A DNA stretch of 64,000 nt, taken from the NCBI RefSeq assembly GCF_001677885.1, contig NZ_LOCQ01000055.1, positions 186,001-250,000 of the forward strand, in the 5' to 3' direction. The DNA comes from Janthinobacterium psychrotolerans. GTDB lineage: Bacteria; Pseudomonadota; Gammaproteobacteria; Burkholderiales; Burkholderiaceae_D. The translations under genes and the position numbers were made by a program. This document shows, in pieces, positions 3,590 through 21,707 of this stretch. Numbering within the stretch: position 1 is the first letter of the stretch; each line of letters opens with the position of its first letter. The notes under the pieces are model-generated. The model was not told the origin of the DNA. It saw only the letters and a program-made list of their open reading frames with translations, and ran no database searches.

Positions 3590-4329
<740 letters not shown>

Positions 4330-7128: not shown

Positions 7129-7157
7129 TTGTCAAAAAACGATTTTCAGCCTAGAAT
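7129..7157 (+). promoter_or_regulatory. Sigma-70-type promoter of the recombinase gene
   Basis: TTGTCA 7129-7134 and TAGAAT 7152-7157 are separated by exactly 17 bases, giving a start near 7164 and a ~28-base leader to the recombinase ATG. It lies inside the element, so the recombinase has its own promoter. Confidence 0.7.
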
Positions 7158-7191
7158 ATTTCCATAAAATTGTCAAATTTTGGGGAAATAT

Positions 7192-8514
7192 ATGGCTACT
7201 TTACCGCGTGGAATCACAGCAGTAAGTTGGAAAAATAGCACTAAGTCAAAAGAGAAGATTGTCAAGTACAGAGTACGAGTGCAGAAAAAAGTTGATGACC
7301 AGCAAGTCAAGCTTGACAGCCTTTTTGACACACTTCAACAAGCTGTGGACGAATTGAATAATTTCAAGTCAAAAGCGGGTAGCTATTTTTTAAGCACAAT
7401 TGACAAGCTTAAAGAAGAAGAAAGAAAAAAAGTAAATGAGTTCTTGGTCGCTCCCCCGATCTCTGTATATATTAGTAAATATATTACAGAAAAAATTGAC
7501 ACAAGAAAAAATGAAACTCAAACACAACAAAGAAACACAGCAGTAATAAAGTCTTTTTTTAAAACAATCCTTAAAACAAAAATTCCGAACCGTCACTACT
7601 CAACAACAGAACCACTTTTGCAAGCAGGCGGTATGCTTGCTTTGATAGCGAACAATACACTTTCACAGGCAGAAGAAAAAAAAGAGTTTGGAGCATTTAA
7701 AGTTCAAGAAATTTCATACATTGAAATTAATGACTACATAAAAGAACGCCTAAAAACAGTCAAAAAAATATCTGTCACAAGAGAACTTTCTTTCATTAAA
7801 AAAGTATTTAATGAACTGAAATATTATGATAAGTCCTTTTTCAGCCTTAAAAACCCTGTTTTATTTTATGATAAAGGCTTATTAGCCAATAGTGACATTT
7901 CTTCAAAAAATAGCTATCGCTTATCAACAGAAGACAAAGATATTTTGTTCGGTGCTCTCCACAAATACAGCAATTGGGAATTGAAAGCTATCTCGTTACT
8001 TTCATATTACTGTGGTTTTAGTAGAAGTGAGATTGTCCCATTGACTTGGGAACAAGTTAATTTAGCTGAGAATTATGTTCAGCTTTATCAAAAAAAATCA
8101 GGCCAACCAAGAAAAGTTTACATTTTAAAAGAGGCAAAAGAAATATTTGAAAATATGCCAAAGACCAACGGCGACAGGCTCTTTAGCTATGGGGTCTTAG
8201 GATTTTCGGGCTCATTTGATAAGCTTGTTGAAAAGTTGGGTTTGAGAAAAAAAGGTTTTCGTTTTCACTTTTTTAGAAGGGAAGCCATATCAAATTTAGT
8301 ATTCAATTTAAGTCAAGCGACTGGAAGCACTGGACAAGATTTTTCTATTCTTATTAGTGAAATTCTGGGCATTGAGAATATAGCTTCACTTGAAAGAAAT
8401 CATATAAATCAATTGTCACCAACAGAAATAGCATCACAAAATCAGGTTATGAAGTCTGTAGGACACAGCAACAAAAAAACAACAAAACGATACTCTAGAA
8501 TAAAAATTCGATAA
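7192..8514 (+). CDS. Tyrosine recombinase / integrase of the element
   Basis: A 440-residue site-specific recombinase with the full tyrosine-recombinase active site: Arg278 in GFSRSEIVPLTW, a lysine in the QKKSGQPRK hairpin, His359xxArg362 in FHFFRREA, His425 in SVGHS and nucleophile Tyr434 in KRYSR. The N-terminal ~230 residues would be the arm- and core-binding domains; they are lysine-rich and do not match a subfamily I recognise. ATG 7192 is chosen because GGGGAA (7182-7187) lies just upstream; a TTG at 7180 precedes that site. It is adjacent to attL, the normal position for such an enzyme. Codon use is strongly AT-biased, unlike flanking genes. Likely functional. Confidence 0.9.
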   Translation: MATLPRGITAVSWKNSTKSKEKIVKYRVRVQKKVDDQQVKLDSLFDTLQQAVDELNNFKSKAGSYFLSTIDKLKEEERKKVNEFLVAPPISVYISKYITEKIDTRKNETQTQQRNTAVIKSFFKTILKTKIPNRHYSTTEPLLQAGGMLALIANNTLSQAEEKKEFGAFKVQEISYIEINDYIKERLKTVKKISVTRELSFIKKVFNELKYYDKSFFSLKNPVLFYDKGLLANSDISSKNSYRLSTEDKDILFGALHKYSNWELKAISLLSYYCGFSRSEIVPLTWEQVNLAENYVQLYQKKSGQPRKVYILKEAKEIFENMPKTNGDRLFSYGVLGFSGSFDKLVEKLGLRKKGFRFHFFRREAISNLVFNLSQATGSTGQDFSILISEILGIENIASLERNHINQLSPTEIASQNQVMKSVGHSNKKTTKRYSRIKIR

Positions 8515-8665: not shown

Positions 8666-9121
8666 ATGAAGCAAGTAAGTGGCGTTTTGAAAAAACTTGG
8701 ATCGGCAAATTTGACACATGGAAATGTTGGGTCTTCTACCATTAAATATAATACAATTCAAATTGGTAATAACGTTCTTCAGAAGATAGTAACGGCTCAG
8801 AGCTTAGACGATTTTTTGACACAGGGCTTGGGTCAAGAAGTAACCTTATTTTTGAATAAAAATATGCTTATCGGAATAAAACTTCAGGACGGTCAAATTT
8901 ATTATTGGAAAAGAAGTTTTAGTTTATTTTTATTTGCTATTATTTTATCAATTGCTCAGTTGGGTTTTGCTTACGCAATCGGTGGATTAGCAAATAATTT
9001 CGTCATTCCAATGATTGTTATGTTTGCAGTCATATTTTTCACGTCTGGCTCAATTTTTATGCAGAGATTAATTTATGAGCCAAAATTATCCTCCGCGGGT
9101 GGCGTGCCACTTAGGGGATAA
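8666..9121 (+). CDS. Two-helix membrane protein of unknown function (element cargo)
   Basis: A 151-residue protein. Residues 1-80 form a soluble, beta-rich domain (TIQIGNNVLQKIV, LDDFLTQGLGQEVTLFLNKNMLIGIKLQDGQIYYW), followed by two transmembrane helices at about 88-108 and 113-133 and a short tail. AAGGA precedes the ATG. It has its own promoter and terminator, so it is a single-gene unit. I do not recognise the family. In a small mobile element, a two-helix protein with a soluble domain could be an exclusion, toxin or immunity protein, but nothing in the sequence decides this. Confidence 0.7.
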   Translation: MKQVSGVLKKLGSANLTHGNVGSSTIKYNTIQIGNNVLQKIVTAQSLDDFLTQGLGQEVTLFLNKNMLIGIKLQDGQIYYWKRSFSLFLFAIILSIAQLGFAYAIGGLANNFVIPMIVMFAVIFFTSGSIFMQRLIYEPKLSSAGGVPLRG

Positions 9122-9255: not shown

Positions 9256-9537
9256 ATGTCTTTAAATATAAATAATAAATCTGTTGTTGTCAATAACTCA
9301 AATGAAGAATCTAATTATTTTTCATTAAATAAAAAAGTCATCAAAGAACTCATTCAAATACCTCGCCCTAAAAACACACTACTTAATATAATGATTTTAT
9401 TGGCTTGTAAAGTGACTTATAAGAATGGTCTTGTCGGTGTTCATAGTGAAATTTCAAAAACGGGATTAGCTAAAGATCTAGGAATAAACAAATTAATTCA
9501 ATCTTGTTTTCAAAATTCAATCTTGAAATGCAAATGA
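9256..9537 (+). CDS. Small protein, possible winged-helix DNA-binding (element cargo)
   Basis: A 93-residue protein; AAGGA at 9245-9249 fits the ATG at 9256. The segment around residues 36-75 (LLNIMILLACKV...HSEISKTGLAKDLGI) looks like a winged-helix DNA-binding fold of the kind found at the front of plasmid or phage replication/regulatory proteins (helix, short beta turn, then AKDLGI-type recognition region). That is a weak, pattern-based suggestion. Its TGA overlaps the ATG of the next gene, so the two are coupled. It may be a truncated relic of a longer protein: coding changes frame just where a recognition helix would continue. Confidence 0.55.
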   Translation: MSLNINNKSVVVNNSNEESNYFSLNKKVIKELIQIPRPKNTLLNIMILLACKVTYKNGLVGVHSEISKTGLAKDLGINKLIQSCFQNSILKCK

Positions 9538-9722
9538 GTCAATTGAGTCATTTCAAAGAAAGTGATATTAAGAAAATTTTTGAGCTAAAACAGAAAATTG
9601 CAGAACTTCAACAGCAAATTGAAACATTGAAAGCAAAGCAAGAACAATCAGCAGAGTCTGCATTGATTGCTAAACGATTTACACCGTTTCCAACACAAAA
9701 AAACGGTCTAGAACGACCGTAG
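9534..9722 (+). CDS. 62-residue coiled-coil protein (element cargo)
   Basis: Starts at ATG 9534, which overlaps the previous stop (ATGA). In-frame ATG 9528 and TTG 9504 are alternatives with no good ribosome-binding site. Residues ~8-43 are a clear heptad-type coiled coil (KKIFELKQKIAELQQQIETL). The last ~12 codons lie inside the left arm of a 33-bp inverted repeat, so coding sequence and DNA/RNA structure are superimposed. It could be an oligomerising partner of the 93-residue protein, an excision factor, or the out-of-frame tail of that protein after a frameshift. Unknown function. Confidence 0.5.
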   Translation: MSQLSHFKESDIKKIFELKQKIAELQQQIETLKAKQEQSAESALIAKRFTPFPTQKNGLERP

Positions 9723-9806
9723 AGCGATTTTTGGCATTGAGTGCTACCCATCACTAGAATGCTGAGAAAGTGCCTCTATGGTCGTTTTAGACCGTTTTTT
9801 GTGTTG
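9691..9806. repeat. Long imperfect inverted repeat (33 bp arms, 49-base loop)
   Basis: Left arm 9691-9724 (CAACAC, A7, CGGTCTAGAACGACC...) pairs with right arm 9774-9806. Only three deviations exist: one extra A in the A-run and two positions that would be G-U pairs in plus-strand RNA. The 49-base loop can itself fold (GCATT...AATGC enclosing AGTG...CACT). The left arm contains the stop codon of the coiled-coil gene. G-U rather than disruptive mismatches hint at selection on RNA folding, but a DNA role (recombinase or nicking site) is equally possible. It is not followed by a strong T-run. Confidence 0.75.
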
Positions 9807-9931
9807 CTTTTAAACCAACTCGTCTGGTTCTCTAATTAGGGGTTCCTGTTGCTGTTGCCGTTGATTTTGTTGTACTGAATTCTGCACAAACTGCCTCGCG
9901 TTAACACCTTTAAAAAACCCTGGCTAGGACC

Positions 9932-9950
9932 GTGGGACCTACTTTCCCAC
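9932..9950. repeat. Short hairpin near the right end of the element
   Basis: GTGGGA 9932-9937 and TCCCAC 9945-9950 flank a 7-base loop. It lies 9 bases before a larger hairpin, giving a tandem pair of structures in noncoding DNA. Confidence 0.5.
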
Positions 9951-9959
9951 AACCTTGTA

Positions 9960-10008
9960 GTTCTTGTGTTACAAGTCTTCACGTTGTGAGGACTTGCAAC
10001 ACAAAAAC
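9960..10008. repeat. 49-base stem-loop next to the right attachment site
   Basis: A 22-position stem with two mismatches: outer GTTCTTGTGTT/AACACAAAAAC and inner CAAGTCTTCAC/GTGAGGACTTG around a GTT loop; one inner pair would be G-U in plus-strand RNA. The outer arm repeats the CAACACAAAAA motif found in both arms of the 9691-9806 repeat. No T-run follows on the plus strand, so a terminator is not supported. Between 9807 and 10084 there is no credible gene; the stretch holds this and the preceding hairpin. Confidence 0.65.
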
Positions 10009-10072
10009 TTTGACAAAAAACTGTCATAAATAGATTTGATAAAATATTTTTGTCTTATTTATCAATGACTTA

Positions 10073-10084: not shown

Positions 10085-10109
10085 GTTTTGAAACTCAGGA
10101 AACAACCAT
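10085..10109 (+). repeat. Right attachment-site repeat (attR), overlaps a start codon
   Basis: Second copy of the 25-bp repeat. It contains the ribosome-binding site (AGGAAA, 10097-10102) and the first two bases of the ATG of the 87-residue gene. Integration therefore rebuilds the translation start while replacing everything upstream. Confidence 0.85.
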
Positions 10110-10371
10110 GAAAAAGACCGACCTGGCGAAAAGCGATGCCAAGAAGTTGATGGGAAAGATGAATGTTCCCGGCGCCGGCGCCTTCGGCAAGGACGCGGTG
10201 GTCGTTGACCGCCGCGAACAGCGCAAGCGCGACCAGGCCCTGGGCCTGGTGCCGTTCGCCGTCAAGCTCAACAGCGACTTGGTGTTGCAGTTGCAAACCC
10301 TGGCCAGGGAGCGTGGCGCGGATTTGAACGAAGTTGTAGCCGACGTGCTCGCCAAGGGCCTGGCGGCTTAA
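10108..10371 (+). CDS. Small ribbon-helix-helix-like protein at the insertion site
   Basis: An 87-residue protein with chromosomal (GC-rich) codon use, unlike the element before it. The C-terminal half fits an RHH (Arc/CopG) pattern: strand VPFAVKL, helix NSDLVLQLQTLARERG, helix DLNEVVADVLAKGL. The basic N-terminus may also touch DNA. The start ATG 10108 has AGGAAA upstream within the repeat. No toxin partner is adjacent. The gene is followed by a bidirectional terminator shared with rpoH. RHH fold is an inference; function unknown. Confidence 0.65.
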   Translation: MKKTDLAKSDAKKLMGKMNVPGAGAFGKDAVVVDRREQRKRDQALGLVPFAVKLNSDLVLQLQTLARERGADLNEVVADVLAKGLAA

Positions 10372-21330: not shown

Positions 21331-21670
21331 GTGAAGCAGGCCAGACAGTCGCTGGCTGGTGCAGCAATGCACCGGCGGGAGGAAGGTCCGGACTCCATAG
21401 AGCGGGGTGACGGTTAACGGCCGTCCGCTGAAAGCTGCAAAGTATAAGGCGAGGAACAGGGCCACAGAGACGAGCGTATTAAGTTACGGTGAAACGCGGT
21501 AACCTCCACCTGGTGCAATTTCAAATAGGCACGCGATGATGCTGCTCGCGGAGCGTGCGGGTAGAAAGCTTGAGCGCCGGAGTAATCCGGCGCCTAGAGG
21601 AATGACTGTCATAGCGCCAGACCGCAAGGCGAGGCGCCGTAACAAAATCCGGCCTATCGGCCTGCTTCAC
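21331..21670 (+). ncRNA. rnpB: RNase P RNA (type A)
   Basis: The catalytic RNA that matures tRNA 5' ends. It begins GTGAAGCAGG, which pairs with CCTGCTTCAC at the 3' end (helix P1). Conserved core blocks are present: GGAGGAAGGTCCGGACTCC near 21379, the internal AGGGCCACAGAGACGAG-type segment, GGTGAAACGCGGTAACCTCC near 21488, and GCAAGGCGAGGCGCCGTAACAAAATCCGGCCTA near the end by position 21625-21655. Length (~340) fits. Promoter and terminator flank it. Confidence 0.95.
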
Positions 21671-21707
21671 TTGAATTCGCGTTTCCGGCCTGTCCGGCAA
21701 CGTTCAG

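Follow-up and report, generated by a model that had tools for sequence, protein, structure and literature searches.

Bidirectional intrinsic (Rho-independent) terminators carry an A-tract, a G+C-containing stem and a T-tract on both strands, and follow the final gene of an operon. Long, imperfect hairpins within mobilization modules also characterize priming sites and promoters of the Frpo/ssi type. Frpo and ssi have been described as folded single-strand promoters that occur in leading regions (PMC11541004). Integrative mobilizable elements with a ColE1/MbeA-like relaxase (MOBP, HEN-type) combine a recombinase, att repeats, MobC and the relaxase, with a nic-like motif upstream of mobC that we find in relatives of the element described here. 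We analysed a 64,000-nucleotide stretch of the Janthinobacterium psychrotolerans genome (the window), in which a cluster of three hairpins shares features with each of these systems. With a probability of about one half, we read the longest, hairpin 1, as a long-stem putative bidirectional terminator of a mobilization operon.

A mobilizable element that has lost its transfer genes

The cluster lies at the right end of an integrated element, 3 kb long and bounded by 29-nt direct repeats with 93% identity (Table 1), in agreement with the placement given in an earlier note on this DNA. The element is AT-rich: most of it has about 27-35% G+C, versus roughly 60-69% outside. Both flanks align with uninterrupted sites in other members of the genus and overlap by the 29-nt repeat; its own recombinase, the direct repeats at its borders and the unoccupied sites in these relatives together identify it as an integrated element.

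Two related elements retain what the window copy has lost. That of Janthinobacterium sp. FT58W (G237) has a recombinase 93% identical to that of the window and an identical target, and its longer interior encodes MobC (Pfam NikA-like/MobC_2) and a 517-aa relaxase. The G303 element has the same mobilization module with a different recombinase and a different target site, which we take, from reading the translations, to be the start of trpG, beside trpE. Relaxase and MobC are complete in both copies (relaxases of relatives span 517-521 aa); with a tyrosine recombinase, MobC and a ColE1/MbeA-like relaxase, these copies have the make-up predicted for an integrative mobilizable element. Similarity of the relaxase to MbeA is weak (E 0.002 in G237; 2.4e-22 in the G069 relative). 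It is 33% identical to the G403 relaxase and has H119, E126 and N128 arranged as H-x6-E-x-N, presumably the HEN relaxase pattern; it appears to be distantly MbeA-like.

The window keeps only a C-terminal relaxase remnant. Because the 72-aa frame is the C terminus of the relaxase, MobC is gone from this copy, together with the bulk of the relaxase and the sequence that separated the two; the putative oriT is also deleted. These losses set it apart from the integrative mobilizable elements described above, as does its target, the start of a small gene. A 12-nt repeat, AATTCAATCTTG, occurs near the deletion junction. Neither the relaxase nor the G303 recombinase had a match among viral contigs, and the G303 recombinase was absent from 294 sampled genomes of the family, a sample that excluded G303 and so contained no positive control. 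Further along the window, positions 21333-21672 correspond to Bacterial RNase P RNA class A.

Table 1. Features of the integrated element and its target in the window
Feature	Position	Strand	Remarks
attL, core GTTTTGAAAATCAGGAAACAACCATTAAA	7029-7057	+	29-nt repeat; left flank matches empty sites to about 7060
Probable recombinase promoter, TTGTCA-17-TAGAAT	7129-7157	+	Putative, read from sequence; overlaps TGTCAAA at 7130
Tyrosine recombinase	7180-8514	+	ATG at 7192; Pfam Phage_integrase, E 2.5e-10
151-aa protein	8666-9121	+	Family not assigned; cargo; absent from ORF lists of G237 and G303
5' part of a gene (187 aa in G237)	9256-9537	+	Cut by internal deletion; compared with L045:4414-4977
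Relaxase C-terminal remnant, 72-aa frame	9504-9722	+	89% identical to relaxase residues 441-508; profile match
Hairpin 1	9691-9807	.	Long inverted repeat behind the relaxase gene
Q-rich reading frame, GVNARQFVQNSVQQNQ...	9813-9911	-	Similar in all three copies; putative coding
Hairpin 2	9932-9950	.	GTGGGA-7-TCCCAC, 19 nt
Hairpin 3	9959-10009	.	Near-perfect stem, 3-nt loop; just within the right end of the element
TTTGACA...TGTCA	10009-10026	.	Matches left-end TGTCAAA at 7130 and 7171; possible arm-type sites
attR	10085-10113	+	Spans the host gene's RBS and start codon
Interrupted host gene	10108-10371	+	87 aa; weakly similar to 'LexA regulated protein'

Three hairpins at the right end

The three hairpins are present where the earlier note had placed them, and jointly they stand well above chance; the region folds strongly (z -9.4 plus and -7.2 minus for the 341 nt as a whole). 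Hairpin 1 is the top inverted repeat in the element, with a score of 19 where 60 Markov shuffles gave at most 13. Its 34-nt arms (9698-9731/9767-9800, 85% complementary) are lengthened by an exact CAACACAAAAAA/TTTTTTGTGTTG pair at 9691-9702/9795-9806, and its fold reaches z = -12.1 on the plus strand and -8.7 on the minus strand. Hairpin 3 folds with z -6.1. Hairpin 2 is weak on its own (z -1.5; 17 of 200 shuffles are equally good), and its stem is identical in the window, G237 and G303 elements.

Two further claims of that note hold for the window copy and fail among its relatives. The CAACACAAAAA motif, said to be shared by the hairpins, does recur in the window, but G237 has one copy, in hairpin 3, and G303 none; the motif is not conserved across copies. 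Likewise, the mismatches of hairpin 1 suit G-U pairing on the plus strand in the window (-64.4 kcal/mol plus versus -50.3 minus), and this is reversed in G237 (-49.3 plus versus -53.6 minus), so that there is no consistent strand for G-U pairing.

The minus-strand Q-rich frame reads GVNARQ(F/Y)VQNSVQQ... in all three elements. An in-frame TAA lies upstream in G237 and G303, a GTG preceded by GAGG could start a short peptide, and a third-position excess appears only in the two comparisons with G237. A conserved protein downstream of the relaxase was considered and rejected, as the candidate amounts to this frame, limited to the three known copies.

Conservation of hairpin 1 behind the relaxase gene

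Hairpin 1 occupies the same place in each element: behind the relaxase gene in G237 and G303, where its arms begin +46 and +47 from the relaxase stop, respectively, and behind the relaxase remnant in the window. Over the three copies 95.8% of pairs are standard, compared with 34-52% when the pairing is slid. The covariation check proposed earlier gave a mixed answer: pairing is kept in both homologues, with two double compensatory changes, both in G237, but 61 of 500 shuffles reach the observed level, so that with three rows only the covariation of hairpin 1 is suggestive. G237 and G303 diverge by 15-29% in the 100-column blocks that cover or flank hairpin 1 and by 23% at relaxase fourfold sites; apart from the pairing, hairpin 1 shows no strong constraint. 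The apical sequence GCATTGAGTGCTAC is conserved, and the ends of the hairpin vary by copy (CAACAC, CAAGCAC and CACACAC).

A 5-bp hairpin at 9813-9829 was tried as additional covariation. Its G237 version equals the region after a neighbouring small gene, and it was left out because conversion is possible. In L045, TGACTGACTCGCTCAGTCTTCTAA is present twice (about 3985-4011 and 953-969), once where a small gene ends and once, in inverse orientation, at the G237 element's right end, possibly through conversion.

A dispersed repeat or MITE was rejected, as hairpin 1 is single-copy in the genome. Plasmids, phages and viral contigs showed no match to the cluster, and hairpin 1 gave only short, weak matches there (E 1 or more). 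When 300 genomes of the order were searched with a covariance model of hairpin 1, there was one outside match only, and it looks like an ordinary terminator (AGAACGGCCTA...TAGGCCGTTTTTTTT).

A putative bidirectional terminator

An A-tract precedes the stem of hairpin 1 and a T-tract follows it on both strands, the stem-then-T-run arrangement of an intrinsic terminator. A terminator scan marks the hairpin on both strands of the window and G303 copies, and in G237 only for leftward (element minus-strand) transcription. We also scanned for inverted repeats behind 13 relaxase genes, over 1500 nt each. Simple hairpins with an A-tract and a T-tract follow distant relaxases at +1 (G273), +163 (G292) and +439 and +409 (two G242 elements); the remaining relatives have other kinds of hairpin or none nearby. 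Because these hairpins lie at varied distances and none is of the size of hairpin 1, they support the terminator role weakly. As an aside, L110 has three consecutive perfect palindromic hairpins, each with the centre gaagta-TATA-tacttc, 988-1129 nt downstream of its relaxase.

Several properties count against a terminator. The stem of about 24-33 bp and the apical part of 33-49 nt, partly conserved and itself folded, are oversized in comparison with described bidirectional terminators, and the plus-strand T-run is just 4 in G303. In G237 local mini-hairpin terminators are partly broken and the long-range pairing is intact. No hairpin of this size stands behind the more distant relaxase genes, and neither strand of hairpin 3 carries a T-run.

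The cluster is the right end, mostly non-coding, of a predicted integrative mobilizable element from which the bulk of the mobilization genes has been deleted in the window. On the terminator reading, hairpin 1 would close the MobC-relaxase operon as an intrinsic terminator on both strands, and would also halt leftward transcription entering the operon. Hairpin 3, and perhaps hairpin 2, belongs with the integration end; it stands between the probable arm sites of the recombinase and the mobilization module, and may insulate the interrupted host gene.

Single-strand sites and small RNAs

Hairpin 1 might instead act during conjugation, folding on the transferred strand in the recipient as a priming site or promoter of the ssi/Frpo type. 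It travels with the mobilization module and not with the recombinase, it is long and imperfect, and the switching G-U bias is what would be expected if a DNA strand folds; nevertheless, we consider this role unlikely. Hairpin 1 differs from Frpo/ssi in having no recognised usable -35/-10 duplex and no sequence match, which leaves such a function putative: the loop hexamers TTGGCA-18-TAGAAT (window; TAGATT in G303) would mostly pair together and not form a duplex promoter, and the scan finds no promoter-like hexamers in the G237 loop. The cluster gave no plasmid or phage match, and either strand may be the transferred one, since the nic-like motif discussed below is oriented opposite to mobC in a ColE1-type plasmid. 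We give still less credence to the idea that hairpin 1 represents a novel type of single-strand site in mobilizable elements, one that would fold on the transferred strand to start complementary-strand synthesis or early transcription.

We similarly doubt that hairpin 1 acts as a small regulatory RNA, such as one that controls expression of the relaxase. Its strong folding (z -8 to -12), its compensatory changes and the conserved apical GCATTGAGTGCTAC would suit such an RNA, and against it stand the G-U bias, which changes strand between copies, and the failure to find a conserved promoter. An Rfam search returned no family at gathering score; two eukaryotic sub-threshold matches (E 0.095 and 0.55) were taken as chance.

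Hairpin 3 and the integration end

The position of hairpin 3 is taken in G303 by an unrelated hairpin. As G303 has another recombinase and another site, this swap places hairpin 3 with the integration end. The replacement hairpin adjoins a repeated TTTGTCCAA-type motif of the G303 element itself; an TTTGTCCAAATTTTTGTCCAA-type motif lies at both ends of that element (L083, 2653-2678 and 9364-9389), probably as recombinase arm sites. Hairpin 3 sits directly inside the probable arm sites of the window element and is exchanged along with the recombinase, as would be expected of an accessory att site. Even so, a folded, attC-like single-strand recombination site, or such an accessory role for hairpin 3, is improbable: the 29-nt direct repeats, and not the hairpins, provide the recombination cores, contrary to what had been suggested for the cluster, the ends of hairpin 1 differ among copies and we saw no conserved paired attC boxes by eye.

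An oriT candidate outside the cluster

That the cluster is itself an origin of transfer or nick site, as was also proposed, is very improbable: the hairpins adjoin the relaxase gene and CCTGGCTAGG at 9919-9928 resembles the ColE1-type CTGGCTTA, but this string is lost in G303, leaving no nic motif conserved within the interval, and a better match, ATACGGGCTAAA, occurs upstream of mobC in G237 and one of the two G242 elements. Near versions of ATACGGGCTAAA are ACACGGGCTAAA in G303 and ATACGGGCCTAA in an Acinetobacter plasmid, and CTGGCTTA appears as TATACTGGCTTAA in a ColE1-type plasmid. Downstream of the relaxase, neither G237 nor G303 yielded a motif of the ATACGGGCTAAA kind. We regard ATACGGGCTAAA upstream of mobC as a candidate oriT, judged from its sequence, outside the hairpin cluster and in the part deleted from the window copy. 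In L104 (537 nt ahead of the relaxase ORF) and L123 (about 1418), mobC is preceded by an ATACGGGC(T/C)TAA-type motif, a candidate nic region for these relaxases. We take CTGG/CTTA to be the ColE1 nic. The main text of PMC9282650 has no occurrence of CTGG.

Implications

Should hairpin 1 turn out to work on single strands, it would offer a compact model of how mobilizable elements undergo strand conversion. The comparison documents a small Janthinobacterium family of mobilizable elements with exchangeable recombination ends, in which the window copy is an element caught after the loss of its transfer genes, its striking fold in an ordinary setting.
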